38,524 bases of DNA from a virus. The notes below the pieces were generated by a model. It did no database searches, had not been told where the DNA came from, and saw nothing but the letters and a program-made list of their open reading frames with translations. Positions within the stretch are counted from its first letter, which is position 1; every line of letters begins with the position of its first letter. Shown one piece after another: positions 7,601-36,653 of this stretch. The stretch is taken from positions 1 to 38,524 of IMG/VR virus record IMGVR_UViG_3300037339_000138; one strand, written 5' to 3'. Position numbers and translations under genes: made by a program.

Positions 7601-7863
7601 TAATATTTAGGAGTTCTACCCTCCCCTTTAAAGCTACGAAGATAAAGTGGTGGAGAAGCCTCTTTTGCCAAGGATTTAACCATTTCCGTATCTAACTTCA
7701 CTGGAATTGGTATCTCTTCCCCGCAACCTTTACAAACAGCTCTGGCCCCCTTTTCCTCAGAAATGAGCAATATCTTAGTCCGCATCTTAAGCTCGCCATT
7801 AACGCTCTTAATAATCATTTCACTACATTTAGAGCAAGCCAAAAATACGGAAGGAGAAATCAT
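7600..7863 (-). CDS. Small zinc-ribbon protein, unknown function
   Basis: This 87-residue protein has two CxxC pairs, CSKC at residues 11-14 and CKGC at 44-47, separated by a 29-residue beta-rich stretch. That is the layout of a zinc ribbon. Phage ribbons of this size act as translational regulators (Com-like), transcription factors or assembly adaptors, and nothing here decides between them. The start overlaps the stop of the 379-residue gene (ATGA), so translation is coupled. It is the last gene of the long head cluster before the separately promoted protease operon. Confidence 0.7.
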   Translation of the reverse strand: MISPSVFLACSKCSEMIIKSVNGELKMRTKILLISEEKGARAVCKGCGEEIPIPVKLDTEMVKSLAKEASPPLYLRSFKGEGRTPKY

Positions 7864-14708: not shown

Positions 14709-14901
14709 ATAGTTCCTTTATTTCATAGCTAAGACTATCTAACATTTTATCCAAAGAATCACTAGCAAAAGCTACAAGCTCTGACTCAGCTGGATTTTCA
14801 GGAACAAACTTACCATCTACTTGATTTCTCTTAGCTAACTGAGCTAATCCCTTGCTAACTAGCCCAAGTTCTTCTGAAGTTAAATTTGTCCTAAGTCTCA
14901 A
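14698..14901 (-). CDS. Small helical protein, unknown function
   Basis: This 67-residue, mostly helical, acidic protein begins MRLRTNLTSEELGLVSKGLAQ. Its start overlaps the stop of the HNH nuclease gene by 4 bases, and its end overlaps the next gene by 11, which supports translation. It may be a chaperone-like or adaptor subunit of the head cluster, but there is no recognised family. Confidence 0.6.
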   Translation of the reverse strand: MRLRTNLTSEELGLVSKGLAQLAKRNQVDGKFVPENPAESELVAFASDSLDKMLDSLSYEIKELFDE

Positions 14902-15419
14902 AACTTATTTCCCTTGCTCATATTGTCTTCAGCTAAAAGATACTGTAAATTCTCCAAAACATGAAGACCGGAAACATTCTTACCTCTAAGTGGGACTATA
15001 TGGTCCACATGGTACCCCTCTGGACAACTCAAGTAAAACTCTTTTATTACTCTTAGGTCAACCCATGAAGGAGTTCTATCCTGTCTATCAGCCCTATACT
15101 GGGCGGTGTAGTACACACCTTTTTTTAATATAGTATTCTTGTTAGCTTCATAATAACCCTTCCTATATTCCCTAGCATATGCTCGCTGATTCTCAAGGTT
15201 ATCATAATAATACTCCATACGAAGCTTTCTACGCTCTTCTTTATTTCTGTGATAATATTTTCTAGCGTTTTCTCTTATCTTATCTGGATCCGGTATATAG
15301 TTTGCCTTTTGTTTATTGCAACAAACTTTACAAGATGGACATAAACCATTCTTCTTAGATTTATCTCGGTAAAAACAATAAAGAGACTTCTCCTGACCGC
15401 ATTTACTACACACTTTCAT
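14898..15419 (-). CDS. HNH endonuclease, free-standing homing type
   Basis: This 173-residue protein has an N-terminal zinc finger-like cluster (Cys4, Cys7, then Cys27, Cys30, Cys33 and Cys34), a long Tyr/Arg/Glu-rich helix at residues 50-110, and a C-terminal HNH core with VDHIVPLRG (Asp139, His140) then GLHVLENLQYLLAEDNMSKGNKF (catalytic Asn residues). This architecture is common among mobile HNH nucleases of phages, which cut alleles lacking them and spread by repair. It sits inside the head operon with overlapping starts and stops on both sides, so it inserted without breaking the operon. It is an alternative candidate for a packaging-associated HNH, but no terminase is nearby. Confidence 0.85.
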   Translation of the reverse strand: MKVCSKCGQEKSLYCFYRDKSKKNGLCPSCKVCCNKQKANYIPDPDKIRENARKYYHRNKEERRKLRMEYYYDNLENQRAYAREYRKGYYEANKNTILKKGVYYTAQYRADRQDRTPSWVDLRVIKEFYLSCPEGYHVDHIVPLRGKNVSGLHVLENLQYLLAEDNMSKGNKF

Positions 15420-17229: not shown

Positions 17230-17736
17230 TTACACTTTTCTAGGATTTATGTAAAGATTTGGTCCTTTAAGAATATTACTCTTAATCATTGACTCAGACA
17301 GATAGAGGATTTCTTTAGACTTAATGAGTTTACCATTAGATTTCTTCGCTTTAGACTTAAATTCATCAAGTGAAAGTTCCTTCATACTTCCAAAGAACCT
17401 AGAGTCATTAAAATGCCTTAGATAAGCAGCTTTAGCGGAATGTGAGTCCTTAAATCCAATCATAACTTTTTGCTCATCAACTTCCTTAAATTCAGGTCTC
17501 TTTAGCTGAGTTATTACAAATACCTTATCAGAAGACTTATCTGGCCCTACAAAAACATCTACTTCATCCCCATCCAGGCCCAGGGTACCCCTGACATACC
17601 CATAGGGGTGCTTCATTTTAGTCTTACCGTGCTCGTCTGCTTCAGGGTCGTACCAATGTCTAACTGACCCCTTTCTATTCTCTATAGAAACTGGAAGACC
17701 TTGAAACTCCATTCTATAAGACAACTTATGCTTCAT
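17230..17736 (-). CDS. Inorganic-pyrophosphatase-like (InPase) polyvalent-protein domain
   Basis: This 168-residue protein matches the small InPase domain found in phage polyvalent proteins: GLPVSIENRKGSVRHWYDP, then YGYVRGTLGLDGDEVDVFVG (the acidic DGDEVDV cluster is the likely metal site), then KVFVITQLKRPEF and DEQKVMIGFKD with SAKAAYLRHF. The last 35 residues carry LYLSESMIKS and GPNLYINPRKV elements. It starts at the base where the portal gene ends. The domain is known from proteins delivered with phage or plasmid DNA; whether it hydrolyses pyrophosphate here, or simply binds nucleic acid, is not known. The family call is by motif. Confidence 0.75.
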   Translation of the reverse strand: MKHKLSYRMEFQGLPVSIENRKGSVRHWYDPEADEHGKTKMKHPYGYVRGTLGLDGDEVDVFVGPDKSSDKVFVITQLKRPEFKEVDEQKVMIGFKDSHSAKAAYLRHFNDSRFFGSMKELSLDEFKSKAKKSNGKLIKSKEILYLSESMIKSNILKGPNLYINPRKV

Positions 17737-20700
17737 TACAAACTAGTTTTCCAAGAGTCCAACTCAGAAAGATCTATCTCTAAATACTTATGTCTATCCG
17801 ATACTATCAAAGACTTACCAAAAGAATCATTATATTGAGGAGCACCAACGGAGTCTTCGGCTTTTCCTTGGCTAGTAGTATCTTCCCCAGCAGCGGGCTG
17901 TGTTAGAGCCTGCTGTGCCTCAGCTTGCGCCTTTTGCTGCTCCATTTGAGCCTTTTGCTGCTCTTCTGCTGACTTCTGTTGCATAGCCTGCAGATAGGTA
18001 GGATTCATAGGAATGTCCCCAAACTCCAGGTCAGGAAGGTCATCTGACCTGCGAATCTCATTCAAAGTAAGATAGGAAGATACCTGCTCAGTCCTTAGGG
18101 TATGTTTTTCCTGGTCCGTTAGTTCTTCCAGACCTGCAAAGTCAAAGACAAAGTGGTCATCAATCTTATTGATAACATACTCATTAATGAGCTTAGATAT
18201 GAACCTAAGAAGAGGTTTAAGACCACGGTCTCTGGAAGCTTTCAGCTTCCATTCCTGAGAGGACTCAAATAGAGGAGTCTGCTGAACGCCACCCTTTAGA
18301 TCAAAGTTAATCTCAGCTGGATCTATTAAAAAGACCCCGCATGTGATTTTTATGAGGTATTCAAGCCAAGAACCAAACTCCATATCCCTGTTATTGGGAT
18401 GAAGGTCAATCCATTCCAAACCTTGTTCTGACTGTAAGATCGGAGTTCTCCAGGAATTAGAACAGAGAACATTATTAGCTACAAACATATGATCTTTGTG
18501 GTCTACAGACACATCGAACATAGGAACATAAAGCCCTGTATTACTTAGTTCCACAACAGTAGCGGTACTATAGTCATTAAGCCATGAGGGAGTTTCTTGG
18601 CCACACTTCTCCAAATATCTAATAAGCCTAGAACGGCTACACCCGTCTTCTCCGGACAGGATAGAATTAAGATCCATGCGCTCTCTTCGTGTAAGAAGAC
18701 TATAACTGCTTTCTTTATTTACGTTTCTACAAACATTTAAATACTTAATAATAGTACTCTTAGGAACCTTATCGAACTTATTAGATTCATTAAGCTTCTT
18801 AAGACCTTTAGGCTGCTTGTGATATTGCAAAAATCCTACAATATCAAAGAACAAATCCCTATCCTTAACCCTGAGCAAGTGAGGAGATTCTTTATATATT
18901 CTATTCTTTCCTTCAATTACTACTTTATTCTTGCCCTCAGACAAAGCACACCTAATCCCGACAGACAGAAGAAGATGCTTTATTTGATCTCTAATATCAT
19001 CTGCAGAAATAGTTATTTCTGGAGAACGTCTCTTTGCATTGTTGCCGTCCGCAGAGAATATGCCTCTCAAAAAAGCAACCCTATGAGACCTAGGCATAGT
19101 GAACAAGTTAGATGGAACTACTTTCTTCTTGCCAGCAGTAAAGCCATGAGAAGAAAACCATTTAGCTACCTCAACATCATTTATTCTAATCTGTGTTACT
19201 AAAGAAGATACAGATTTAAATCCATACTTTTCCTTTATATCTTCTATCTGTTCTTCCGAGCGCTTGTAAATATGCTTCTCAGCAGAGGGGAAGAATTCCT
19301 TAATAACCGACAAGTGGTTCTCTAAAATCTCTTGCTCTTTTTCGTGGTGATAGAATATTTGAACAGACCTAGGTCCTATATATCCGTCACCAATAAGCCA
19401 GCCAAGTACTTCCATAAACTCAGGAGTAGCCCTCTTTCCTGCCACACCCAGGGTTGTGCCAACAGCGGTATCTTCTCTATTTACAAGAAGAACATCTCCT
19501 AAAACAAGCTCATCTTGGGTTTTCCACTCGGGGTCTCCTGACTCCCCTACAACCTTGATTTTGTGATCTGGAGAAGTAGAAATAGTAACCCCATTATCTA
19601 ACTTAGTATGACAAAGTACTTTATCTTCTTTTGTCTTATAAACTAAACCAGTCTCCCAAGAAGTACCCGTCCATATATGCACAGGCACTTCTTTTTTGTC
19701 ACCACAAATACTTGACAAAGAAGAAAATCCATTTTCCCTGGTGTATATCCTAGTATCCCCAGCTAGACAGTTTTCTACTCCCTCAAGGTTAGACCTCCAC
19801 TGACGGCGAAAAGCCTCTAACATGTCAGGGGTCATGGCATCCCCTTTGAAGTTTAAAATTCCTTTCGGGGCACTGGATTGTGAAAAAAATCGCCTATTAT
19901 ACTCTTCTGCATATAAGTGAGCTGTAACTATAGTTACTAGTTGCTCAAGTTCCCCATAACCATACCCTTGAATATAAATATCTGTACGAGGGTTTCTTAC
20001 ACCAAATACCATCTCGCTTCTATCATAAACGTTTTCAATCTGCCCATTTAAGATTTGAACATAGTCTGGAGACTTACTAGTAATACCCCTTTCGTACAGC
20101 TTTAACATACGATAAGGATGTCTAGTGTCTGCATTAGAAGCTACTAAGCTACTTCCACTATAATTAGCGGACCTTTTGTGCCATGAGTTATTTGGACCAA
20201 AGGGGGTATCTGGAGCTGCTATACGAATAGTAGCAGCATCTACAGCCATAAACTCATATGGCTGACCTCTCCTATCTGGTACTAGCTCGAACGTCATTTG
20301 ATCGTACATAAGACTGTCCCGTACAGTCTTCTTTAAAAAGGACTCAAAGTCGTCGCGCTTAGTATTATTATAGGGATTAGGAGTATCATATCCACAGTTG
20401 TAGATAAATCTTTCTAAATCTTTAATAAACTCCTGCTCTGACTTAGTAGTCAGATGGCTAGGGTCTTTATGCTTAATGACATAGCCAACACTTTTAGAAG
20501 ACCTATAAGGAACGCTAAATGCAGCTACCTGATTGCATCTAGTTTGCAATATAGCAGAGACTACGGCTACTTGATGAGGTATTCTCTTTAACACATCATA
20601 AGTAACAGAATACTTACGGTCTTTATAGCCCATAGCATACTGTATGGACAATGGGTCATACATTAATGACCGAAGACCTTGAGCTGCATCTTCTGGTTTT

Positions 20701-20795
20701 AATCTAGACTTAATAATATGATCACGAACTAAAGAGGGGATAGAGCTAGTCTGATCCTGCCAAGAAGCTAATGTATCATTCCATTCGGTGCTCAT
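17736..20795 (-). CDS. Portal protein interrupted by an intein
   Basis: The 1019-residue precursor contains a 438-residue intein (residues 343-780), leaving a 581-residue mature portal. The exteins match the phage portal family: YDVLKRIPHQVAVVSAIL (67-84), a beta domain, GYGYGELEQLVTIVTAHLYAEE with YNRRFFSQSSAPKGIL (277-314), EAFRRQWRSNLEGVEN (327-342), and after the intein SWRTPILQSEQGLEWIDL and then LIKITCGVFLIDPAEINF, the fold that forms the dodecameric DNA channel at the head vertex. A Gln/Ala-rich tail with repeated QQKAQ follows and ends in HKYLEIDLSELDSWKTSL. It overlaps the 707-residue gene by 4 bases. The insertion lies in a conserved segment, so correct splicing should be essential. 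Confidence 0.92.
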   Translation of the reverse strand: MSTEWNDTLASWQDQTSSIPSLVRDHIIKSRLKPEDAAQGLRSLMYDPLSIQYAMGYKDRKYSVTYDVLKRIPHQVAVVSAILQTRCNQVAAFSVPYRSSKSVGYVIKHKDPSHLTTKSEQEFIKDLERFIYNCGYDTPNPYNNTKRDDFESFLKKTVRDSLMYDQMTFELVPDRRGQPYEFMAVDAATIRIAAPDTPFGPNNSWHKRSANYSGSSLVASNADTRHPYRMLKLYERGITSKSPDYVQILNGQIENVYDRSEMVFGVRNPRTDIYIQGYGYGELEQLVTIVTAHLYAEEYNRRFFSQSSAPKGILNFKGDAMTPDMLEAFRRQWRSNLEGVENCLAGDTRIYTRENGFSSLSSICGDKKEVPVHIWTGTSWETGLVYKTKEDKVLCHTKLDNGVTISTSPDHKIKVVGESGDPEWKTQDELVLGDVLLVNREDTAVGTTLGVAGKRATPEFMEVLGWLIGDGYIGPRSVQIFYHHEKEQEILENHLSVIKEFFPSAEKHIYKRSEEQIEDIKEKYGFKSVSSLVTQIRINDVEVAKWFSSHGFTAGKKKVVPSNLFTMPRSHRVAFLRGIFSADGNNAKRRSPEITISADDIRDQIKHLLLSVGIRCALSEGKNKVVIEGKNRIYKESPHLLRVKDRDLFFDIVGFLQYHKQPKGLKKLNESNKFDKVPKSTIIKYLNVCRNVNKESSYSLLTRRERMDLNSILSGEDGCSRSRLIRYLEKCGQETPSWLNDYSTATVVELSNTGLYVPMFDVSVDHKDHMFVANNVLCSNSWRTPILQSEQGLEWIDLHPNNRDMEFGSWLEYLIKITCGVFLIDPAEINFDLKGGVQQTPLFESSQEWKLKASRDRGLKPLLRFISKLINEYVINKIDDHFVFDFAGLEELTDQEKHTLRTEQVSSYLTLNEIRRSDDLPDLEFGDIPMNPTYLQAMQQKSAEEQQKAQMEQQKAQAEAQQALTQPAAGEDTTSQGKAEDSVGAPQYNDSFGKSLIVSDRHKYLEIDLSELDSWKTSL
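18456..19769 (-). mobile_element. LAGLIDADG intein in the portal gene
   Basis: The 438-residue intein has Cys343 at its N-terminus (CLAGDTRIYT, block A), GVTISTSPDHKIKV with His411 (block B), two dodecapeptide motifs VLGWLIGDG (463-471) and LRGIFSADG (576-584) of a homing endonuclease, and a C-terminal VPMFDVSVDHKDHMFVANNV segment (block F) ending LCSN before extein Ser781. The terminal Asn is preceded by Ser instead of the usual His. The frame is intact, so splicing and homing may both be active. The insert joins extein sequences GVEN and SWRTP. Confidence 0.9.
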
Positions 20796-24843: not shown

Positions 24844-25347
24844 TTAATCTAGATTAAACTTCTTTTTAACCTTTTGGAGTTTCTTTAACATAAAACCCCT
24901 TTTTATAGCACTAACTTTATCAATAAATAATACACCACTCAAATGGTCAAACTCATGCTGTGCAACAACTGCATCTGGCCCACTCAGCTCAGCGTTAAAC
25001 TCTCTACCGTCTACATCTATGGCTTCTATAGTGATCTCATTAAATCTATCTATTAACTCAAAAACATTAGGAAAAGACAAACATCCTTCCCTAGAAGTAA
25101 TACTTCCATCCGAACGAGTTATTCTAGGGTTTATAAAGTATTGAAGTTTCCCATCCACGTTAGTCACAAATACATTCTTTCTAACTCCTATTTGTGGGGC
25201 AGACAGGCCCATAGCTCCATAAGTGCCCACAGTATCCGCTAAGTCTTGCATAAGAGAAAGAAACTCTTCTGAAGTTAAGTCTTCTATGTCAGAAGACTCC
25301 TCTCTTAGTTCTTTTGCTGGATATAGTAATACCTTTTTAACTGACAT
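24844..25347 (-). CDS. def: Peptide deformylase
   Basis: This 167-residue metalloenzyme removes the formyl group from N-terminal Met of new proteins. All three family motifs are present: GLSAPQIG (47-54), EGCLSFP with the metal Cys89, and HEFDH (131-135) with His131 and His135 as the other ligands and Glu132 as the catalytic base. Phage deformylases are typically short versions that lack the C-terminal extension; this one keeps a short basic tail (KLQKVKKKFNLD). It is part of a run with metallophosphoesterase and IMPDH-like genes. It probably supports phage protein production when host deformylase is limiting. Confidence 0.93.
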   Translation of the reverse strand: MSVKKVLLYPAKELREESSDIEDLTSEEFLSLMQDLADTVGTYGAMGLSAPQIGVRKNVFVTNVDGKLQYFINPRITRSDGSITSREGCLSFPNVFELIDRFNEITIEAIDVDGREFNAELSGPDAVVAQHEFDHLSGVLFIDKVSAIKRGFMLKKLQKVKKKFNLD

Positions 25348-25349
25348 AT

Positions 25350-26003
25350 CTATAAATCAATCACGATAGGAAGATTGGTAGGAGCGTAGTTTTCCGTACA
25401 TATAGCAGCATTAATAATAGGAACACCAAAAAGGGAATGAGAACCATAGCCACCGTGAATATGACCACAGACTACTGCCCTAAGAAAACAACTAAACTCT
25501 TCTATTGCCTTAGTTAAAAAAGAACTTCCTAAGTGGGCAGACAATCCGCTAGCAATTTGGTCGGCGCAGCCGTGGGGAGGTCCATGACTTATTAAGACAT
25601 CAGTACCAACTGGTACTTTATTCCAGAGTTGTGTAGGGGTTGTTCCACACTTACTATATTGAAATGCCCAAGTATCTGGATAAAAGTCTGGAGTCCAAGG
25701 AACTCCATAAAAACGTAAACCAGAAACTTTGTCTGTGTAAGATGCATCTATTAAAAGATGAATACCAGACTTTTCAAACTCTAATCTTACAGGAGGAGAA
25801 ACCTCAACACAAATATCATGATTACCAGGAACCACAATCTTGGTCCTATGAGGAAGGGTTTCCATCCAATCTAGAAACTTACTAACCTCTGTGGCGTCTC
25901 CTCTTCCACAAAAGTCACCAGCATGTACAAGAATATCCCCAGGTGGAACATCCACAAACCTATGACGAGTATGAGTATCAGAGATACAAACTATAGAAGT
26001 CAT
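25350..26003 (-). CDS. Calcineurin-like metallophosphoesterase (MPPED/UPF0046 type)
   Basis: This is a 217-residue protein with the complete metallophosphoesterase signature: CISDTHTRH (metal I), LVHAGDFCGRGD, VVPGNHD, LISHGPPHG and CGHIHGGYG. Members of this small single-domain group hydrolyse phosphomonoesters or diesters, often cyclic nucleotides, with two divalent metals. The start codon overlaps the stop of the IMPDH-like gene (TAATG), and it ends 2 bases before the deformylase gene, so the three are one operon. The natural substrate cannot be read from sequence; removal of signalling nucleotides is possible. Confidence 0.9.
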   Translation of the reverse strand: MTSIVCISDTHTRHRFVDVPPGDILVHAGDFCGRGDATEVSKFLDWMETLPHRTKIVVPGNHDICVEVSPPVRLEFEKSGIHLLIDASYTDKVSGLRFYGVPWTPDFYPDTWAFQYSKCGTTPTQLWNKVPVGTDVLISHGPPHGCADQIASGLSAHLGSSFLTKAIEEFSCFLRAVVCGHIHGGYGSHSLFGVPIINAAICTENYAPTNLPIVIDL

Positions 26004-27031
26004 TATAAAATACCATGAGGCATAGACTCTTTTAGACCTGCCACAGTTATAGTAATAAACTCTGCCTCTTCTTGCAAGTCATGCAAGTTATCTACACCAC
26101 AATAAGTCATACCAGAGCGTATACCTTGTGTAAGGGAGGCAATAACATCCTCTACACTCCCCTTATAAGGAATCAAGCGTTCTGCTCCCTCAACATATTC
26201 TATACTATCAAAGTAATCTTTCTTAGCACCGTAAGACGCAGCTCCCCTATACACCTTATATTTTAAACGAGTCTTGTCATCTTTTAGTACTGGACCCGGT
26301 GCTTCTTCAGTTCCTGCCAGTAAGCTGCCCAACATAACTGCATCTGCTCCAGCGGCAATGGCCTTCACTATATCCCCACTAGACCTAATGCCTCCATCTG
26401 CAATTATAGACATTTCTGAATCAGTTTCATCCAAAGTCTTTCTAACATCCATAATAGACTGGAGAGTAGGAACTCCGAATCCAGTATTTATTCTAGTAGT
26501 GCAAACACTTCCTCCACCAACACCAACCTTAAGAGCTACTCTATGCTGGTCAGCTTCTGAAATCTCTTTATCAAAATGGGAAGCTGCATAAGATGTAGCT
26601 ATGTTTCCTATTATTAAAGAACAATCAAATGTATCTAAAAACTCTAAAGCAACATCAAGAACCTTCTTTTGATGACCATGAGCAACATCCAAACATATTA
26701 TGTTTACCATATTATCTATTAAACAGGAGGCTCTATCTTTCCAGTCTTCACCAATACCAATTGCGGCTCCTGTGTTAAACATAACATTTTGATTAACCTG
26801 CAAACATTGAGCTTCTATAGATTGCATCCTATGAATAATCCCAAGACCGCCCACATACCCCATAACTTCTGCCATCGCATATTCACATACTGAAGGCATA
26901 TTAGCAGCAATAATAGGAATATGAAAAGGCAAACCAGCTACAATAGTGTGTAAGCTAACGTCTGACCTACTAGGTACTTCGTTATACCCAGGAACTAGTA
27001 ACACGTCATCAAAGGACAATGCAAGTTTCAT
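26003..27031 (-). CDS. CBS-less IMP dehydrogenase / GMP reductase family enzyme
   Basis: The chosen start is the ATG at 27031 (342 residues), preceded by AAAAGGGG at a good distance. A longer frame would run through the tRNA-Ser gene and is rejected. The fold begins SFDDVLLVPGYNEVPSRSDV, with IIAANMPSV, then the active-site loop VGVGGGSVCTTRINTGFG (catalytic Cys177) and the nucleotide-binding IIADGGIRSSGDI. The C-terminal part, with RLIPYKGSVEDVI and IRSGMTYCGV, is IMP-dehydrogenase-like. The regulatory CBS pair of full IMPDH is absent, as in GMP reductase. It interconverts IMP with XMP, or GMP with IMP, and adjusts the guanine pool. Which reaction it favours is uncertain. Confidence 0.88.
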   Translation of the reverse strand: MKLALSFDDVLLVPGYNEVPSRSDVSLHTIVAGLPFHIPIIAANMPSVCEYAMAEVMGYVGGLGIIHRMQSIEAQCLQVNQNVMFNTGAAIGIGEDWKDRASCLIDNMVNIICLDVAHGHQKKVLDVALEFLDTFDCSLIIGNIATSYAASHFDKEISEADQHRVALKVGVGGGSVCTTRINTGFGVPTLQSIMDVRKTLDETDSEMSIIADGGIRSSGDIVKAIAAGADAVMLGSLLAGTEEAPGPVLKDDKTRLKYKVYRGAASYGAKKDYFDSIEYVEGAERLIPYKGSVEDVIASLTQGIRSGMTYCGVDNLHDLQEEAEFITITVAGLKESMPHGIL

Positions 27032-28240: not shown

Positions 28241-28290
28241 TTTAGAACAATACTTTTTCATTACCCATTTGACTCTACCCTCATAGTTAG

Positions 28291-28372
28291 TACCTACGGT
28301 GGGAGTCGAACCCACATGTCTCAAAGACGGATGATTTTAAGTCATCTGTGTATACCGTTCCACCACGTAGGC
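28291..28372 (-). tRNA. tRNA-Leu(TAA)
   Basis: This is an 82-base type II tRNA. The acceptor pairs GCCTACG with CGTAGGT. The anticodon stem GATGA/TCATC holds loop CTTAAAA (anticodon TAA, reads UUA). It has a long variable arm GTCT-TTG-AGAC, and T-arm GTGGG-TTCGACT-CCCAC. No encoded CCA. Confidence 0.92.
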
Positions 28373-28378
28373 TCATAG

Positions 28379-28451
28379 TGCGCACGGGAGGAATCGAACC
28401 TCCTAATCACTGCATATAAGACAATTGCCGTAACCATTTGGCTTCGTGCGC
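28379..28451 (-). tRNA. tRNA-Ile(TAT)
   Basis: This is a 73-base tRNA with acceptor GCGCACG/CGTGCGC, D-stem GCC/GGC, anticodon loop CTTATAT (anticodon TAT) and T-arm AGGAGG-TTCGATT-CCTCC. It reads AUA directly, which most bacteria do instead with a lysidine-modified CAT tRNA, so it is a marked supplement for a host that rarely uses AUA. Confidence 0.9.
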
Positions 28452-28455
28452 TTAG

Positions 28456-28528
28456 TGGATGGAGAGAGAATCGAACTCCCGACTTCCTCCGTGTAAGGGA
28501 GGCATTCTAACCGCTGAATTATCCATCC
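28456..28528 (-). tRNA. tRNA-Val(TAC)
   Basis: This is a 73-base tRNA with acceptor GGATGGA/TCCATCC, anticodon stem CCTCC/GGAGG with loop CTTACAC (anticodon TAC, reads GUA) and T-arm GGGAG-TTCGATT-CTCTC. Its first ten bases overlap the end of the 85-residue gene, and its bases 8-10 (TAA) are that gene's stop codon. Confidence 0.92.
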
Positions 28529-28776
28529 TTTAGTTTCTTTAAATAGTAAACAGGAACCCTAACATAAGGATAGCTATCTGGTCTTCCATCTAGCTTAACA
28601 ACAGCTGTTCGTATATTAAGTGCACTCTCAGTAAAAGAAGGAAGTAAAAAGCTAACTACAGTACCTTTCTTAAAGAGATTATAGCGTACCCTATCTCCCA
28701 CTTTAATAGTGCTGCTTTTTAAACCCTTATCAATCTCTCTATTAAACAGACTTGATAAGGTCTGTAACAAACGCAT
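28519..28776 (-). CDS. Small SH3/KOW-like protein, unknown function
   Basis: This 85-residue protein has a central beta-barrel pattern (KVGDRVRYNLFKKGTVVSF, then TAVVKLDG) typical of small SH3-like or KOW domains that bind RNA or protein. The N-terminus is basic and helical. The stop codon lies inside the tRNA-Val gene (10-base overlap), and the start overlaps the 161-residue gene by 35 bases, so translation and tRNA processing compete on the same transcript. Role unknown. Confidence 0.65.
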   Translation of the reverse strand: MRLLQTLSSLFNREIDKGLKSSTIKVGDRVRYNLFKKGTVVSFLLPSFTESALNIRTAVVKLDGRPDSYPYVRVPVYYLKKLKDG

Positions 28777-29227
28777 CGGGCTTCCCTTCTATAACAACAT
28801 GAGCAAATCTAGTTAATATAGCTAAGATATTATCCTTAGCTATATGAAACTCTTTTCTTTCAGAAGGGGTCTCAAATACTATTTCTATATGATCATTATC
28901 ATCTGCAGAAAAGGCCCAAGGCCCTATAGTAATAGTTGAAAAAGAGGAAGACCCAGATGCGGTGGCCCATCCACCGCCCGTACCAGTACTTATCAAGAAG
29001 TTTCCATCTGTAGTATATGTATCTCCAGTAGATGTAAGTAGATCGCCACTTGATATAGTAAGATTATTGGGGAAAAGAACACCACTACTATCTCCAGTGC
29101 TAGTACCAGAGCCAAAGATATTCGCAACATTACTACTTCCACTATTAGTAATAGTAGGATCTAAATAGCCTGTTCCACCATTATCTTCCCATTTATTAAT
29201 GTCGTAGTCATCCTTATTATTGGCCAT
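28742..29227 (-). CDS. Gly/Ser/Thr-rich protein with helical C-terminus
   Basis: This is a 161-residue protein. Residues 15-95 are low complexity with repeated Ser/Thr/Gly turns (SSGDLLTSTGDTYTTDGN), and residues 98-161 are a small folded domain (IGPWAFSADDNDHIEIVFET, then a helix AKDNILAILTRFAHVV). It has no signal peptide. It could be a surface or decoration protein, or an adaptor whose repeats extend it from a particle. It lies between the lipoprotein and the KOW-like gene, with the latter overlapping it by 35 bases. Not recognised. Confidence 0.6.
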   Translation of the reverse strand: MANNKDDYDINKWEDNGGTGYLDPTITNSGSSNVANIFGSGTSTGDSSGVLFPNNLTISSGDLLTSTGDTYTTDGNFLISTGTGGGWATASGSSSFSTITIGPWAFSADDNDHIEIVFETPSERKEFHIAKDNILAILTRFAHVVIEGKPDAFVTDLIKSV

Positions 29228-29236
29228 ATATACCTC

Positions 29237-29761
29237 TTAGTAGCGATATTCATTATCGCTTTTATGACAAAAGTTCTTATGGGTGCCTAAAGACCAATGG
29301 TGACATTCACCATCTAAGCAAAAATCCCAAGTACACTTATTTCCGTCTAAGCAATCTTGCCAGCAGGTACAAGTTTGAATAACGCCACCGCTGCCTCCGA
29401 CGCCGCCAGAACCACCTCTACCCCCAGAGCCAGCAACACCGCCTGTGCCGCCTCCCCCAGCAAAGCCACCAACTCCCCCAACGCCTCCAGTACCCGCAAA
29501 GCCCCCAATGCCACCTTGTCCACCTTCTCCTCCATATCCTGCATATCCACCTACTCCCCCAACTCCGCCTTGTCCACCAAAGCCCGCGTAACCACCAACG
29601 CCACCCGTGCCAGCATATCCACCTGAACCACCTACTCCACCATCAACGCAATCAGGCAAATCAGGATATGACTCACAGGGATAAAGTAAAATAGGCCCGG
29701 CAAAGCCATCTCCACAGCCAGCAGTTAATACTAAAACACACACAAATATAAATCTATACAT
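29237..29761 (-). CDS. Glycine-rich lipoprotein with Cys-rich tail (myxobacterial style)
   Basis: This is a 174-residue exported protein. The signal peptide MYRFIFVCVLVLTAGC ends in a lipobox-like cysteine at residue 16, so it should be acylated and attached to a membrane. Residues about 40-130 are a GGxGGxAGxGG repeat. The tail holds at least eight cysteines in the pattern CTCWQDCLDGNKCTWDFCLDGECHH, which closely resembles the DGNxCTxDxCxxGxC element of many Myxococcota surface proteins. It probably coats the infected cell or modifies its surface. A TTGACA promoter at 29770-29797 lies so close that the start codon is almost at the transcript end. Confidence 0.75.
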   Translation of the reverse strand: MYRFIFVCVLVLTAGCGDGFAGPILLYPCESYPDLPDCVDGGVGGSGGYAGTGGVGGYAGFGGQGGVGGVGGYAGYGGEGGQGGIGGFAGTGGVGGVGGFAGGGGTGGVAGSGGRGGSGGVGGSGGVIQTCTCWQDCLDGNKCTWDFCLDGECHHWSLGTHKNFCHKSDNEYRY

Positions 29762-29769
29762 AGAACACC

Positions 29770-29797
29770 ATTTTATACGTTACTAACCTCTTGTCAA
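29770..29797 (-). promoter_or_regulatory. Sigma70-type promoter for the lipoprotein gene
   Basis: On the minus strand -35 TTGACA (29797-29792), a 16-base spacer and -10 TAAAAT (29775-29770) predict a start about 29763, one or two bases before the ATG at 29761. The mRNA may be leaderless or nearly so; no Shine-Dalgarno is visible. The -35 lies right after the tRNA-Arg 3' end. Confidence 0.7.
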
Positions 29798-29810
29798 TAG
29801 AAAAAGCTAG

Positions 29811-29882
29811 CACGCCTAGATGGACTTGAACCAACATCACAGAGGTAGAAACTCTGGGCTCTATCCGTTGAGCTATAGGCGC
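29811..29882 (-). tRNA. tRNA-Arg(TCT)
   Basis: This is a 72-base tRNA with acceptor GCGCCTA/TAGGCGT, D-stem GCTC/GAGC, anticodon stem CAGAG/CTCTG with loop TTTCTAC (anticodon TCT, reads AGA), T-loop TTCAAGT and discriminator G. There is one likely mismatch in the T-stem. AGA is a codon that GC-rich hosts avoid. Confidence 0.88.
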
Positions 29883-29892
29883 AGAGGGGTAG

Positions 29893-29963
29893 AGCGGATA
29901 CTTGGACTCGAACCAAGGATAAAAGGTCGGAAACCTCTTGTGTTGCCACTACACCATACCCGC
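29893..29963 (-). tRNA. tRNA-Gly(TCC)
   Basis: This is a 71-base tRNA with acceptor GCGGGTA/TATCCGC, D-stem GTGT/ACAC, anticodon stem AGAGG/CCTTT with loop TTTCCGA (anticodon TCC, reads GGA) and T-arm CTTGG-TTCGAGT-CCAAG. Spacing to the next tRNA is only 10 bases, so these tRNAs are one processed transcript. Confidence 0.9.
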
Positions 29964-29971
29964 AACATCAG

Positions 29972-30043
29972 AGCTGGTGGGGAGAATCGAACTCTCGTCT
30001 TCTGAGTACAAAACAGAAATAATTGCCACTATACTACACCAGC
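29972..30043 (-). tRNA. tRNA-Thr(TGT)
   Basis: This is a 72-base tRNA with acceptor GCTGGTG/CACCAGC, anticodon stem TCTGT/TCAGA (one T-T mismatch at the loop side) with loop TTTGTAC (anticodon TGT, reads ACA) and T-loop TTCGATT. The D-arm is weak and the T-stem has an A-C mismatch, so stability is lower than for its neighbours. Confidence 0.8.
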
Positions 30044-30053
30044 AGAATATGGT

Positions 30054-30120
30054 AGCGGGCCGAGGTAACGCTCCTCGCTATTCAGGCTTATGAGACCCGA
30101 CTGATCGCTTGATCGCCCGC
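30054..30120 (-). tRNA. tRNA-Met(CAT)-like RNA with reduced D-arm
   Basis: This is a 67-base structure. The acceptor pairs GCGGGC with GCCCGC. The anticodon stem CGGGT/GCCTG holds loop CTCATAA (anticodon CAT), and a T-stem CGAGG/CCTCG holds an unusual loop AGCGTTA that lacks TTC. Only 14 bases lie between acceptor and anticodon stem, with a GATC-AAGC-GATC mini-hairpin instead of a normal D-arm. It is either a divergent tRNA, a decayed gene or a tRNA-like RNA. Confidence 0.5.
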
Positions 30121-30125
30121 AATAC

Positions 30126-30329
30126 TTATCCTAGGTACTGTAAAAGCTCCATCCCATGTTTCTTTAAACACTCATCACAAGAAACTTCCAGTAAAGAACA
30201 AGTTACGTCCGCAGGTGTTGACCACTTGTCACTACTAAGTGACTTTCTTCCACAAGAAGTCATCCACCACCTACGTATAAGTTTAGATCTTTTACCTTGT
30301 TGATAAATCATCAACTTTGCATAATGCAT
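30126..30329 (-). CDS. Small Cys/His protein, likely zinc-binding
   Basis: This is a 67-residue protein starting MHYAK and holding SCGRKS, then DVTCSLLEVSCDECLKKHG. The spacing of His2, Cys26 and the CxxC pair near residue 52 recalls small phage proteins with an HY...CG...VTCxxC zinc site. AAGG lies 7 bases before the ATG. It lies directly behind the small membrane protein and ahead of the tRNA run, so it should share their transcript. Function unknown. Confidence 0.6.
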   Translation of the reverse strand: MHYAKLMIYQQGKRSKLIRRWWMTSCGRKSLSSDKWSTPADVTCSLLEVSCDECLKKHGMELLQYLG

Positions 30330-30341
30330 ATCTATACCTTA

Positions 30342-30551
30342 TTAGGTATTACGCTTATTCTTTGTTCTTCTTACCCAAGCAGCTACTCCAGCTATAGCTG
30401 GAATAATAACAATAAGAGGTGTGCTAATGTATGCAACTATAGGCCAAGGAGATCTAAACCAAAGAAAGAACCATAAAACACTTGTTACAGTAGTTGTTGC
30501 TGTCAATATTACCCACGCTATAGGAGGGTTCTTATCTGCTGTATCATTCAT
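30342..30551 (-). CDS. Small two-pass membrane protein (holin-like size)
   Basis: This is a 69-residue protein with hydrophobic segments at residues 11-32 and 36-59 and a strongly basic C-terminal tail (WVRRTKNKRNT), the general form of small holins, antiholins or superinfection proteins. There is no lysis cassette (endolysin or spanin) beside it, so its role stays open. It lies between tRNA-Pro and the 67-residue zinc gene. Composition makes it a true coding region. Confidence 0.55.
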   Translation of the reverse strand: MNDTADKNPPIAWVILTATTTVTSVLWFFLWFRSPWPIVAYISTPLIVIIPAIAGVAAWVRRTKNKRNT

Positions 30552-30594
30552 TTATTATTCCTATTATTAGTAGTTTATTCTACCTTTTAATTGA

Positions 30595-30670
30595 TCGGAA
30601 CGGTAGGATTTGAACCTACGACTTCATGCTCCCAAAGCATGCGCTCTAATCCAGGCTGAGCTACGCTCCG
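30595..30670 (-). tRNA. tRNA-Pro(TGG)
   Basis: This is a 76-base tRNA with acceptor CGGAGCG/CGTTCCG, D-stem GCTC/GAGC, anticodon stem CATGC/GCATG with loop TTTGGGA (anticodon TGG, reads CCA), T-arm GTAGG-TTCAAAT-CCTAC and discriminator A. Its first ten bases overlap the end of the 140-residue gene, whose TAG stop is tRNA bases 8-10. Confidence 0.93.
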
Positions 30671-31083
30671 ATTGTAGATACCAAGTTCCTCATCTGAGTC
30701 TGTTGAACTCTAGTGGCTTCAATCCTATCAGCTAGACGACTAAAACCTTTTGTAATAACTGTTGGAACTTCCTCTCCTTCTCTTTGTGTAAAAGAAGAAG
30801 AAATAGTACGAAGCATCTTAGGTACTAAAGCAAAGCAGTCTTCCGATAAGAAGATTGAAGCAGCTGCTAATTCTCCTAAAACACCATCAATAATATTCTC
30901 TAACACAGAGATATTAGGTTCTGAACCTACATTTACTCCGTTATCAGCAAACATAGTATGTAGAGCCAAAACAAAGGCAAAAGAGTCCGCGGCAGCATCT
31001 ATCGCTTCCGCAGATACATCATCTGAGTCAGGGTTCTCAAACTCTTCTAAGTACTTTTCATAGTTATTCATAACATAACTCAT
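30661..31083 (-). CDS. Helical protein, unknown function, ending inside tRNA-Pro
   Basis: This 140-residue acidic, all-helical protein begins MSYVMNNYEKYLEEFENPD, with EAIDAAADSFAFVLALHTMF in the middle. It has no cysteine cluster or membrane segment. Its start overlaps the stop of the ribbon-helix-helix gene, so it may be the regulator's partner (an effector or co-regulator), as in two-gene regulatory modules. The last codons and stop lie within the tRNA-Pro acceptor strand. Function unknown. Confidence 0.65.
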   Translation of the reverse strand: MSYVMNNYEKYLEEFENPDSDDVSAEAIDAAADSFAFVLALHTMFADNGVNVGSEPNISVLENIIDGVLGELAAASIFLSEDCFALVPKMLRTISSSFTQREGEEVPTVITKGFSRLADRIEATRVQQTQMRNLVSTIGA

Positions 31084-31407: not shown

Positions 31408-31986
31408 TTACAATTCTTTAAACTCTTCGGCTGGGTCGAATATTCTATGATAGAAAGGGTCAGAAACAGAGTCGGCATACCGTGCTACTATTTCCATAAT
31501 CTCTGTGAGTTTATTGAGAACTGCAACTTCCGTTCTCTTTCCAGGAAAGTACTTCTTTGAAAGAAGAATATCCATAAGAGGGAGAGCTATAGTTGACCCA
31601 TGACCAACCGCAGTATATGGGAAAGGACCAGAAATACCTCCATCGCCACCAATAACATGTAAAATAGGTTTATTATTCTCGTCTCCTGATACATGCAATA
31701 ACTCCGCTTCAATAGGCTCGGTGCCTAGCTCACCCCTAACTTCTGACTGAACTTCACAAACTAACTCACTAAACGTATAAGGGTCTCTGAGGTCGGTCCA
31801 AGGCTCATGCTTAGCTGTCTTAGCTCTAATTCTAGAAAGAGCAAAGTCTGAACCTGACTCTCCTATCATCAAGCACCCCATATTCCACCACTTGCCTTCT
31901 GACATTATCCTCCTAAATCCCATAGCGTCACCAATCGCACTGTCGGTTAAGACTACTATTTTATCATCGGATGTTAGGCAACCCAT
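31408..31986 (-). CDS. Proteasome/HslV-like Ntn-hydrolase
   Basis: The ATG frame gives 192 residues with the fold of proteasome beta/HslV proteins: KIVVLTDSAIGDAMG (strand and Asp), GKWWNMGCLMIGESGSDFAL (Lys and Gly-Ser turn), and later AVGHGSTIALPLMDIL. In this family the nucleophile is a Thr just after the initiator Met. Here the four codons before the ATG read I-T-C-V, and T-C-V-M-G would align with the family's TTIVG start, so a start at ATA (31998) would expose that Thr after Met removal. An AGGAGG Shine-Dalgarno lies 8 bases before the ATA, but 20 from the ATG. With the ATG start the enzyme would lack its Thr. Neighbouring genes are a phosphoesterase upstream and the RHH regulator downstream. 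Confidence 0.7.
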   Translation of the reverse strand: MGCLTSDDKIVVLTDSAIGDAMGFRRIMSEGKWWNMGCLMIGESGSDFALSRIRAKTAKHEPWTDLRDPYTFSELVCEVQSEVRGELGTEPIEAELLHVSGDENNKPILHVIGGDGGISGPFPYTAVGHGSTIALPLMDILLSKKYFPGKRTEVAVLNKLTEIMEIVARYADSVSDPFYHRIFDPAEEFKEL

Positions 31987-31994
31987 TACGCAAG

Positions 31995-32114
31995 TTATTG
32001 GCGCACCCTCCTCTCACGAGCACGCCCGTTGTGGTCAAGGGCTCCCACCCAAATCCAGCATCCAGTAGACTTGCGTACTACTATTTTACTCCAATACTTC
32101 TCTAATAGGGTCAT
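31995..32114 (-). pseudogene. Truncated HNH homing endonuclease N-terminus (39 residues)
   Basis: An ATG at 32114, preceded by GAGGAG at 8 bases, opens a 40-codon frame. The sequence MTLLEKYWSKIVVRKSTGCW, then IWVGALDHNGR, matches the start of free-standing HNH nucleases (STGCWIWTGA...GYGR), which are usually 100-150 residues. The frame stops (TAA) before any HNH motif, so it is a remnant or a very short peptide. Its TAA overlaps an ATA that could start the Ntn-hydrolase (ATAA). The remnant probably came with the rearranged junction between the phosphoesterase and the Ntn-hydrolase. Confidence 0.55.
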
Positions 32115-32125
32115 TGGGGAACTCC

Positions 32126-33412
32126 TCAAAAATGTATTAGGCCGCCATCTTCTATTCCTGGTATATTGATAATACTATCTAAAGAAGTATCTTTATCTGC
32201 TTCTCTAAGTTGTATTATCCTAAAGTCCCCAACTGGGTGGTCAAACACAGACTCAAACATAATCTGAGCTGGCATTGTATTAAAGTAGCCTATGGCATTC
32301 TGTGCAAAATTATCACTTCCTATTAATGAGCCATTTACTATACACACAGTACCGTCTGGTAACATAAACTGGCTGGGCTGATGCCAATGGCCAAATAAGA
32401 CTACACTAGGTCTTTTTGGAAGAACTTCTCCAGCATTCAACTTAAGAAGAGACTCTGTGGTCTTAGATACATTAAAACTCTTTCCTACATTACTAGTAGA
32501 TGGCTCTGTGTCTCCGTGAGTAGCAAAGACCAAATGGTTACCAGGAACAGTATAAGTTCCCATACCTGCCATGGGTACTGTGAAGTTAACGTGCTTAGTA
32601 TCTCTAAACCAACACTTTAAAGCTAAGTAAACAGAATGAGAATGAGAGTTCCAGCGTTGAGCTACTGCACGCTCGCTAGAGCGGTAGCTAGTACGATCAT
32701 GATTACCAGGAAGGCATAAAACATTGATGCTGCCAAAATGCTGAGACAGAAAACCAATAGCTTTAGAAAGGATCGCAGTAGCACCCCAAATCTGCTCTTG
32801 TATCTCTTTAATGTTTGCTTCACTTAAATGTATTATTCCATGGAGTATATCTCCATTAAGTACAATCTGAAGCTCAGTCTCTTCTCTATGTTCTGGCTTC
32901 CATTGTGCTGCCTGTTCAACTAACTTAGCCATTCTTCTGGTTGCAATCTTCCAATTGAACTCAGACAGAAGGACTTCCCTAGGGTCCACGTCTACACCAA
33001 AATGAAGGTCGCTCCAAAGAAGTGTAAGCATACGTTTTTTATACTTAGTCTTCCTAAACTTAACATTACCCTCTGGTATAGTTATTGGGTTCTTTTCAAA
33101 GATCTCTTTAAAACCCTTTAGGATCTTCTCAGAGAGGTAGTCTGCTGTAGCAGCTCTTCGTTCTAAAGAACGAACATAATCATTTCGTAGACTTATTCCT
33201 CTTGATGCGGGGGTATCTTCATAAGGAGCAACACCCCCAACATGGGCAGCGTCGGCCCTAAGCTTGGCATATCCGCCATATTTCTCTAAGTCGTGCTTTG
33301 TAATGTCGGTTTCTGGGAGAAACTGCTTTCTCCTTAGTATCCTAGGGTCTACTCCTAAAGTATTAGAAACTCTTATAATCTCATCAAGAACATAGTCTAG
33401 TGGTCTTGCCAT
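32126..33412 (-). CDS. Calcineurin-like phosphoesterase with N-terminal extension
   Basis: This is a 428-residue protein. Residues 1-135 are helical and charged (a possible DNA-binding or partner region: RRKQFLPETDITKHDLEKYG). The catalytic part shows WSDLHFG, VLNGDILHG, LPGNHDRTS, ATHGDTEPS and LFGHWHQPSQ, the five metallophosphoesterase blocks. It resembles SbcD-type or phage DNA-processing phosphoesterases more than the small MPPED-type enzyme at 25350. A TTGACG promoter at 33434-33462 and a GAGGG Shine-Dalgarno precede it. It may act as a nuclease or nucleotide phosphatase; no SbcC partner is in the window. Confidence 0.85.
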   Translation of the reverse strand: MARPLDYVLDEIIRVSNTLGVDPRILRRKQFLPETDITKHDLEKYGGYAKLRADAAHVGGVAPYEDTPASRGISLRNDYVRSLERRAATADYLSEKILKGFKEIFEKNPITIPEGNVKFRKTKYKKRMLTLLWSDLHFGVDVDPREVLLSEFNWKIATRRMAKLVEQAAQWKPEHREETELQIVLNGDILHGIIHLSEANIKEIQEQIWGATAILSKAIGFLSQHFGSINVLCLPGNHDRTSYRSSERAVAQRWNSHSHSVYLALKCWFRDTKHVNFTVPMAGMGTYTVPGNHLVFATHGDTEPSTSNVGKSFNVSKTTESLLKLNAGEVLPKRPSVVLFGHWHQPSQFMLPDGTVCIVNGSLIGSDNFAQNAIGYFNTMPAQIMFESVFDHPVGDFRIIQLREADKDTSLDSIINIPGIEDGGLIHF

Positions 33413-33433: not shown

Positions 33434-33462
33434 AATGTAGAACATATAGTACTATTCGTCAA
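33434..33462 (-). promoter_or_regulatory. Sigma70-type promoter for the 32126-33412 phosphoesterase
   Basis: On the minus strand -35 TTGACG (33462-33457), a 17-base spacer and -10 TACATT (33439-33434). The -35 box overlaps the stop codon of the patatin gene. It lies in the 46-base gap between the genes. Confidence 0.55.
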
Positions 33463-34310
33463 TAGTTCCAGTTCATACCTTTGGCGTCTTCGTAACCAAT
33501 CTTCCTATTTAAGATTACGTTCTCCTGACTAAAGTTTAAGCCATTACCATTAAGATGAACCTCAGGACACAACAACTTTACGGGTATCTTATCATATTCA
33601 GCAAATAAACTACCCAATATATAGTCTGTGTCGGACACTTCATCTAATAAGATACTAATCATATTAAGAAGAGAAGATATAGTATTCTTATTCTTATACT
33701 TATAAGTTCTATCTAGTGGACTAGTAATTATGACATCAAGCTGTCTAGCTCCCATAGATATAGCTTTTTCCATTGGAATAAAGTTTCTTATACCTCCATC
33801 TGTCCAAAGCTGATTCTCTATGGTAACCGGGGTAAAGAACATAGGGTAGGCGCTAGAAGCACACACAGCCTCCACAATGTCTGTAGAAGCTTCGTCCCAA
33901 TACCTAGCCTCTCCTGTGTCCAAAGACACGGCACCAACAGCTAACTTCTTACCTGAGGTAGCTATCTTGTTTTTATCTAAAGAAGCCTTCACAAGCTGAA
34001 CTAAAGGAGAAGAGTCGTATAAGCTCCTAGCTGACACAGCACTTAGTGCCATGCTAACTTTTTCACCCATTCTATAGTTCTTCTTATAGATACGATCTTT
34101 GTTAACCGTATCCCAGACTTTTCCTAGATCTGTAATGGCCTGCTTTTCTTCACCAGGAAGATACATAGAAACAAAAGAACCATTTAAAGCCCCGACACTG
34201 ATACCAGTAATGATATCATAGTGAGTCTCTTTTTCTCCCAAAAGATATTCTAGTGCGCCAACTTGGTATGCACCAAGAGCCCCACCACCACTAAGGACCA
34301 ACGCCCTCAT
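33459..34310 (-). CDS. Patatin-like phospholipase
   Basis: This is a 283-residue soluble protein with the complete patatin catalytic set: oxyanion loop LVLSGGGALGAYQVGAL (5-20), nucleophile Ser38 in GISVG, and Asp171 in the DGG motif (LWTDGGIRNFIP). Patatins hydrolyse acyl chains of phospholipids with a Ser-Asp dyad. It has no signal peptide, so it would act in the cytoplasm or from the particle, for example on the inner membrane during infection or at lysis. It lies between the small 114-residue protein and a promoter. Phage patatins are uncommon. The family call is strong. Confidence 0.92.
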   Translation of the reverse strand: MRALVLSGGGALGAYQVGALEYLLGEKETHYDIITGISVGALNGSFVSMYLPGEEKQAITDLGKVWDTVNKDRIYKKNYRMGEKVSMALSAVSARSLYDSSPLVQLVKASLDKNKIATSGKKLAVGAVSLDTGEARYWDEASTDIVEAVCASSAYPMFFTPVTIENQLWTDGGIRNFIPMEKAISMGARQLDVIITSPLDRTYKYKNKNTISSLLNMISILLDEVSDTDYILGSLFAEYDKIPVKLLCPEVHLNGNGLNFSQENVILNRKIGYEDAKGMNWNY

Positions 34311-34688: not shown

Positions 34689-36653
34689 CTAGTTTATCAT
34701 ACAAGCTTCACCATCGCAAAAGCGATCTTCCATATCACGCTTAATATTACCATTATGCGTTATAGGGGTAATCTTGGCTACCATAGAGTCATATTCCTGC
34801 TTTGTAATAGCCTCATATGGTGCCTGAACGTATCCATGGTCTTTCATAGGCAAAAAGGACACACTTTTAAGCCTAGTCTCGTACAGCTCTAATGCATGCT
34901 TAATGTTCTCTGCTTCAGCCCCACTAAAAGTGATAGTGGCACTCACAGCATTGTCTGACCAATAAGACTGCATTTGAGCGGCCAACTCAAGTTGCTCCCA
35001 CATTGAGACATCTTTCTTAGCTCGGTCAAAGAACTCTTCCTTTACTGGAAACTCTACTACAACCGTATTTGGACTATATTTGTCTTCTTCAACCTTATAT
35101 CCAGTATTTCTTAGCTTATCCACTAAAGCACTATTAGACTGGAACCTAATCCTCCGTATATAATACTCAGAGTGAGGGAAGTGTATTCCAGGAGTTACTT
35201 GAGGAAGAAGAGAAACAGAGCCGGAGGGTTTTACAGTGGTAATCTTTATGGACTCCCTAACACACAACCAGTCACTGTAGATCTTATCTAGCTCCTTCAA
35301 AAACAGATAGCCACTGTCACACCAGTTAAAGAACTCTCTACGTCCGTGCTTCTGCATAGCCTGAACTATACCTGACATAGAAGTTCCTATCCTTCTGTTC
35401 CTCAACATAATCTGATTGGTCTTCTCACTATGGGTTGGGATAAGCGTTACTGTCTTGGCATACAAATAAGCGTACTTTAGTGTTTTCTCAAAGTCAGCAT
35501 AGGACTCATGCCTACTAGGAAACGTCTCTACTAAGTTACATAATTCCATACTCTCTAAAGTCATCTCACCACAAGGGTTCAGACCGACAACTCGTCTATC
35601 TTTGTCATCTGCAGGTCTGCCCATTCTGCTAAAGGCTTTAGCGTTCTCTAACCAAAGAAACCCTGGCTCTCCATTCTTAGCAGTCAAATTAGCTACTTTA
35701 CTATAATCCATTCCTACTTTAGCAAAAACAGTATTGTTACTAGCCCACCTAAACTTATACAGCTTATCCTGATTTATTGAAGGGTCCTTTAAAGAAAGAA
35801 ACTCTTCATCATCTGCCTCTCCCAACGCTAGTTCCGCTGACCTTCTAACATTACCAGCTACCACACAACGACCAATAAGATTGAAAATATCAACAATGGC
35901 AGTGCTTGTGATCTTTTCCCCAATAAGAGGAGTAAGAACTTCCTTAACAGAGGTTACGAGATCGTCCAAAGGACCAGGCCCACTAGCAGTACCCCCAAAG
36001 CCACGTATAGGAGAACCGGCGGGTCTAACGTCTGAATAGTCGATGCCTGCTGGTAAGCCCCCACGCCCAGTATAAGAGTCAAGAATCCTATATAAAAGGG
36101 ATACCCATCCCTCTCTACTATCTTTGACCAAAAAGACATCATCATTTTGTTTAGGCTCTTGAATCTTGACAAGTCCAGCTCCTTTAGCATCAAAGCCAAC
36201 ACCAACACCAAGCATAAGCATATCCATTGCCCAACAAAATGGTTCAGCAAAGTCTACGTTAATAGACTCGCTAGACACCATTGCACAATTATTCAAACAT
36301 CCCCCGCCGGTCTTCTCTACATGGTCAGCCCCCATCATCCAGAGACCTCTACCAGGAGGAAGCCATTTAAACTCCCACATTCGTATAAACATCTCTTGAG
36401 CGGACTTTTGCGCTTTGATGTTATCCCAGAACAGTCCTAAACGGTGACAATGCTTCTTTTGGATATTGTAACACCCCTCAACTACCCTCTTACAAGTTTC
36501 CCAAAACTCTTCTGAGGTTTGATCCTCTTTAACTCTAGAATAGGTTCTTGCATACGTAATATACCCAAGAGGACCCCAGTCTGGTTGTTTATTCTCAAAC
36601 TCTTCTAAGAAAGAAGAGGACAACTTAAAAGTACGTGCTTCGCTCATACTCAA
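34689..36653 (-). CDS. nrdJ: Adenosylcobalamin-dependent ribonucleoside-triphosphate reductase (class II)
   Basis: This is a 654-residue monomeric-type class II reductase that makes dNTPs from NTPs using vitamin B12. Visible features are the radical-site motif LNPCGEMTLESMELC with Cys361 and Cys372 (same 11-residue spacing as in the Lactobacillus enzyme), the disulfide Cys123 in NNCAMVS, the allosteric region NVRRSAE, the motif KPSGSVSLLPQVTPGIH, and a C-terminal CDGEAC cysteine pair (Cys646, Cys651) for external reduction. It needs no oxygen and no NrdB partner, only host or environmental B12. It lies after an inverted repeat in its leader. It should drive DNA replication of this phage. Confidence 0.93.
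   Translation of the reverse strand: MSMSEARTFKLSSSFLEEFENKQPDWGPLGYITYARTYSRVKEDQTSEEFWETCKRVVEGCYNIQKKHCHRLGLFWDNIKAQKSAQEMFIRMWEFKWLPPGRGLWMMGADHVEKTGGGCLNNCAMVSSESINVDFAEPFCWAMDMLMLGVGVGFDAKGAGLVKIQEPKQNDDVFLVKDSREGWVSLLYRILDSYTGRGGLPAGIDYSDVRPAGSPIRGFGGTASGPGPLDDLVTSVKEVLTPLIGEKITSTAIVDIFNLIGRCVVAGNVRRSAELALGEADDEEFLSLKDPSINQDKLYKFRWASNNTVFAKVGMDYSKVANLTAKNGEPGFLWLENAKAFSRMGRPADDKDRRVVGLNPCGEMTLESMELCNLVETFPSRHESYADFEKTLKYAYLYAKTVTLIPTHSEKTNQIMLRNRRIGTSMSGIVQAMQKHGRREFFNWCDSGYLFLKELDKIYSDWLCVRESIKITTVKPSGSVSLLPQVTPGIHFPHSEYYIRRIRFQSNSALVDKLRNTGYKVEEDKYSPNTVVVEFPVKEEFFDRAKKDVSMWEQLELAAQMQSYWSDNAVSATITFSGAEAENIKHALELYETRLKSVSFLPMKDHGYVQAPYEAITKQEYDSMVAKITPITHNGNIKRDMEDRFCDGEACMIN

Follow-up and report, generated by a model that had tools for sequence, protein, structure and literature searches.

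A proteasome-like threonine peptidase of a phage probably translated from an AUA start codon

In 38,524 nt of viral DNA (IMG/VR record IMGVR_UViG_3300037339_000138; the whole stretch is called the window below), a minus-strand gene was found which, as read from its sequence, very likely encodes an intact phage HslV/proteasome-like threonine peptidase translated from an AUA codon (31998), a very rare start, much as its counterpart in a related contig would be from AUC. Start codons can usually not be fixed from sequence alone. In an Ntn hydrolase without a propeptide, however, translation has to begin at the codon immediately preceding the nucleophile. The chemistry thus pins the start, and for AUA/AUC initiation, in a phage moreover, this is among the firmer cases that sequence alone provides. 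What is new is the combination of a phage protease with an AUH start pinned by the catalytic N-terminus; AUU, AUC and AUA starts as a principle are already known.

The minus-strand codons of the gene read ATA ACT TGC GTA ATG GGT (coordinates in Table 1), which agrees with an earlier note on this DNA that had placed an ATA before a threonine codon and four codons ahead of the first ATG; as had also been argued there, a start at this ATG loses the nucleophile, since the threonine is included only when ribosomes start at the ATA or further upstream. An in-frame TGA (32016-32014) leaves just GAG GAG GGT GCG CCA ATA before the threonine codon, and the ATA is therefore the only near-cognate start. 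The AGGAGG reported 8 bases ahead of the ATA was located, and the Shine-Dalgarno (SD) duplex predicted between this start region and the 16S tail (-12.5 kcal/mol) was the strongest for any of the window's 43 candidate starts, with -8.9 for the runner-up. An energy of -12.5 was equalled or bettered at 0.2% of random positions, and pairing predicted for the internal ATG was near zero (-1.4 kcal/mol). The pattern AGGAGG-N(4-10)-ATH-ACN occurred once in the whole window (both strands), at the protease start. An overlap with the stop of the preceding short frame, likened by the note to ATGA couplings elsewhere, was found as described: within ATAA (31998-31995) the ATA shares bases with the TAA ending a 39-codon frame (ATG 32114 to TAA 31995), and genuine ATGA couplings occur at 7860, 8996 and 20792. 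The mRNA around the protease start showed no more structure than shuffled sequence.

Table 1. Features of the window discussed in the text.
Feature	Position	Strand	Remarks
Proteasome/HslV-like Ntn-hydrolase gene	31408..31998	-	196 codons if counted from ATA; stop at 31408
Proposed AUA start codon	31996..31998	-	ATC in L001 at 5001-5003
Catalytic Thr1 codon	31993..31995	-	ACT in both phages
Shine-Dalgarno AGGAGG	32007..32012	-	8 nt before ATA; strongest among the 43 candidate starts
Internal ATG, codon 5	31984..31986	-	Lacks an SD; unconserved (L001 has ATC); expected choice of gene callers
HNH-endonuclease remnant, 39 codons	31995..32114	-	PHROG E 4e-5; TAA overlaps ATA; absent from L001
Metallophosphoesterase (exonuclease-type)	32126..33412	-	Upstream of protease in both phages, 80% identical
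Patatin-like phospholipase	33459-34310	-	No counterpart in L001 syntenic region
B12-dependent ribonucleotide reductase	34689-36647	-	Counterpart in L001
IMP dehydrogenase/GMP reductase	26003-27031	-	Counterpart in L001
Peptide deformylase (PF01327)	24844..25347	-	Counterpart in L001; could deformylate fMet-Thr
Inorganic pyrophosphatase	17230-17736	-	Counterpart in L001

The assignment of the product to the proteasome-like Ntn hydrolases with a threonine nucleophile, made in the earlier note from the letters, was supported by several comparisons. Pfam PF00227 (Proteasome) was matched with an E-value of 1.9e-4 (21.6 bits, just below the cut-off of 22.4), and a profile of the window protein and its relative was aligned by hhalign with 23 phage HslV-family peptidases over residues 1-189 (P 3.6e-11), and with the MTC-type subset of these peptidases at P 4.7e-9. 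A two-sequence AlphaFold model had low confidence (pLDDT 42), and the 50 top-ranking PDB structures listed for it were without exception proteasome subunits, with E-values starting at about 1e-3; a BFVD fold search with this low-confidence model gave no useful match. With Thr1, Asp17, Lys33 and an oxyanion-hole glycine as the reference catalytic set, Thr 2, Asp 19 and Lys 36 (counted from the ATA) and the Gly of an ESG motif aligned with HslV and the phage homologues. Provided that its threonine is N-terminal, the protein looks from its sequence like an active threonine peptidase.

The profile-profile alignment set residue 1 of the window protein on the start residue of the phage HslV-family peptidases. 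In all 23 of these, taken from public phage records, a start codon stood directly before the threonine (ATG in 18, TTG in 5), which is the Met-Thr beginning for which an alignment of homologues had been proposed, and in E. coli HslV this codon is GTG; the one close relative has Ile(ATC)-Thr. By this family rule of a start codon followed by Thr, the protease start has to be the codon before the threonine. The phage HslV-family peptidases ("peptidase HslV family", "proteasome subunit"; PPH/AAH-type, Fuchs et al. 2021, PMC8665760) are like the window protein by full-length profile and share with it the Thr right after the start codon, the aligned Asp and Lys, a tailed-phage origin and the lack of a propeptide, whereas they differ in using ATG or TTG where the window and its relative have ATA and ATC; with about 17% identity to them, this pair forms a separate divergent branch. 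E. coli HslV likewise has the proteasome fold and a Thr1 nucleophile exposed once the initiator Met is lost; it starts with GTG, and its gene lies beside that for the ATPase HslU. The TTG starts among the phage peptidases (L152-L174) could be a sign that weak initiation is a common trait of this enzyme.

The relative, IMG/VR contig IMGVR_UViG_3300007871_000033 (L001), encodes a protease 64% identical to that of the window over all 196 aa. In L001, ATC stands directly before the same Thr, and the first in-frame ATG, GTG or TTG comes only at codon 32. Between the two protease genes pS was 0.89 (synonymous sites saturated) and pN 0.27. These values bear on the other two options left by the earlier note, namely that a recent ATG to ATA mutation had killed or crippled the gene, or that the base had been misread. 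Taken alone, the window could be accounted for by one G to A substitution, which in turning ATGA into ATAA would retain the upstream stop. The independent contig L001, however, has an Ile codon of its own in that position, with synonymous sites saturated and the protein under purifying selection, and this cannot be explained in such a way. That one base was struck by two separate errors or losses is unlikely, and the protease frame has no stops. Mutation or misreading was accordingly judged highly improbable, and of the note's three options the AUA start is strongly favoured, the ATC of L001 speaking for an AUH start throughout the lineage; on the two sequences, this odd start is very probably real.

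An internal start, yielding a non-catalytic Ntn-fold protein, would be conceivable at ATG 31986 in the window or 5094 in L001, in particular since codon 32 is ATG in both phages and an AGGAGG lies 3 nt before it in the window. That AGGAGG, however, encodes an Arg-Arg pair, written CGT CGT in L001, and initiation at codon 32 would delete the first two predicted strands, while ATG 31986 has no SD and, being ATC in L001, is no conserved start. Over codons 2-31, 14 of 30 residues were kept between the phages in the protease frame, relative to 5 and 3 in the other two frames; because this in-frame conservation, which includes Thr1 and the Asp, lies upstream of the first ATG in L001, the stretch appears to be translated in both phages, and an internal start has very little probability. 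Gene callers would choose internal starts in both phages, and the proteins would be reported as catalytically dead. A CTG at 4986 in L001 was rejected as a start, having neither an SD nor a counterpart in the window. The remaining comparable genes common to both phages have canonical starts in the window and L001 alike, so that genome-wide odd initiation was ruled out and the odd start belongs to the protease gene.

A third account would make the Ile an ordinary residue of a longer precursor, produced by a -1 shift out of the frame of the upstream gene and self-cut before Thr1. It would explain the drift between ATA and ATC, which are synonymous if read as Ile, and by inspection the protease does sit in the -1 frame relative to the upstream gene in both phages. 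These upstream genes are different ones, however: an HNH remnant has been inserted between the phosphoesterase and protease genes of the window, and in L001 the metallophosphoesterase itself precedes the protease. The in-frame residues before the Ile are also unlike (EEGAP in the window, LIGDT in L001), the window frame is open for just 5 codons upstream, no slippery heptamer was seen by inspection, and the SD sites are spaced to suit ATA and ATC. Apart from HslV and proteasome beta, no members with a propeptide are known (PMC8665760). A frameshifted precursor was thus considered a slim prospect. A complete HNH gene of L001 (L001:5588-6106), which shares 38% identity with window 14898-15419, follows directly after the protease and overlaps its stop, and in Ochrobactrum phage vB_OspM_OC (L164) a proteasome-like gene is flanked by HNH endonuclease and serine/threonine phosphatase genes, resembling the window neighbourhood.

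For the AUA/AUC starts, we infer from the two sequences that ribosomes initiate at these codons and that the Met is then removed. The initiator tRNA would pair with AUA or AUC via the first two anticodon positions, placing fMet there; in the window the strong SD would assist, as might ribosomes ending at the overlapping UAA of the HNH remnant (termination-reinitiation). The formyl group of fMet-Thr would be taken off, possibly by the deformylase that the phage itself encodes, and the host's methionine aminopeptidase would then remove the Met, as is expected ahead of a small residue, exposing Thr1 as the N-terminal nucleophile, with the Asp (residue 19) and Lys (residue 36) as the other putative catalytic residues. 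No phage gene for IF3 or methionine aminopeptidase was found in the window or the L001 contig, both of which are possibly fragments. A phage initiator tRNA reading AUA was also considered and rejected: the tRNA-Ile(UAU) at 28378-28451 (minus strand) is of the elongator type (G1 and C72 are paired, and the anticodon stem lacks a G-C triplet). It is one of seven phage tRNA genes at 28290-30671 and a reader of AUA in elongation; the L001 stretch carries 25 tRNA genes, including Ile(GAU).

AUA and AUC are poor initiators, and the weak start codon probably keeps the protease scarce, its synthesis being low and IF3-sensitive, with the AGGAGG (and, in the window, reinitiation) as compensation. In S. 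aureus, infC, ccpN and citZ have working AUA starts with an extended SD, giving about 10-30% of the AUG output where measured (PMC13009471), and in Streptomyces sigR has an IF3-repressed GTC start with AGGAGGTG (PMC5472188); such starts therefore work and lower expression. An excess of IF3 reduces re-initiation in E. coli, with a smaller effect if there is an SD (PMC2268962). The reinitiation at non-canonical starts described in PMC4648390 is eukaryotic and was set aside as support. The genes with AUU, AUC or AUA starts (infC; S. aureus ccpN, citZ and cvfC1; PMC13009471) and sigR (PMC5472188) have non-canonical starts with a strong or extended SD; like those of the phage pair, these starts are conserved among relatives, and they are thought to limit expression, held down by IF3. 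By comparison, the SD of the window protease is strong, whereas that of L001 (AGGGG-ACACC ahead of the ATC) is ordinary (-6.4 kcal/mol, matched by 11% of random positions). Those genes are also host regulatory or metabolic genes that have been tested experimentally; the putative case read here from sequence is a phage protease, whose requirement for an N-terminal Thr dictates where it must start. More tentatively, and with doubts prevailing, the lineage could have been selected for AUH over AUG, with output gated during infection by initiation fidelity (IF3 level or activity), which would make this an IF3-sensing viral protease.

Conservation of the AUH start refers to two members, the window and L001 (n = 2). 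No third member emerged from scans of viral contigs anchored on protein, profile or motif or on nearby genes (phosphoesterase, ribonucleotide reductase, capsid). Scans of genomes, tblastn against phages and plasmids, and searches of 37 entire viral records with profiles likewise yielded nothing beyond L001. With the rule that fixes this start, hidden non-canonical starts can be sought among all N-terminal Thr/Ser/Cys hydrolases, and the protease start bears on the question of a rationing of toxic enzymes by phages through weak starts.

A few further features of the window were noted. The best full-length match of its phosphoesterase was in Myxococcus phage Mx1, and a glycine-rich lipoprotein-like protein with a Cys-rich tail (29237-29761, minus strand) is reminiscent of myxobacterial proteins; a myxobacterial host is our guess. 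The probable portal gene (17736-20795, minus strand) contains a large insertion (about residues 357-772) that is missing in L001 and looks intein-like.
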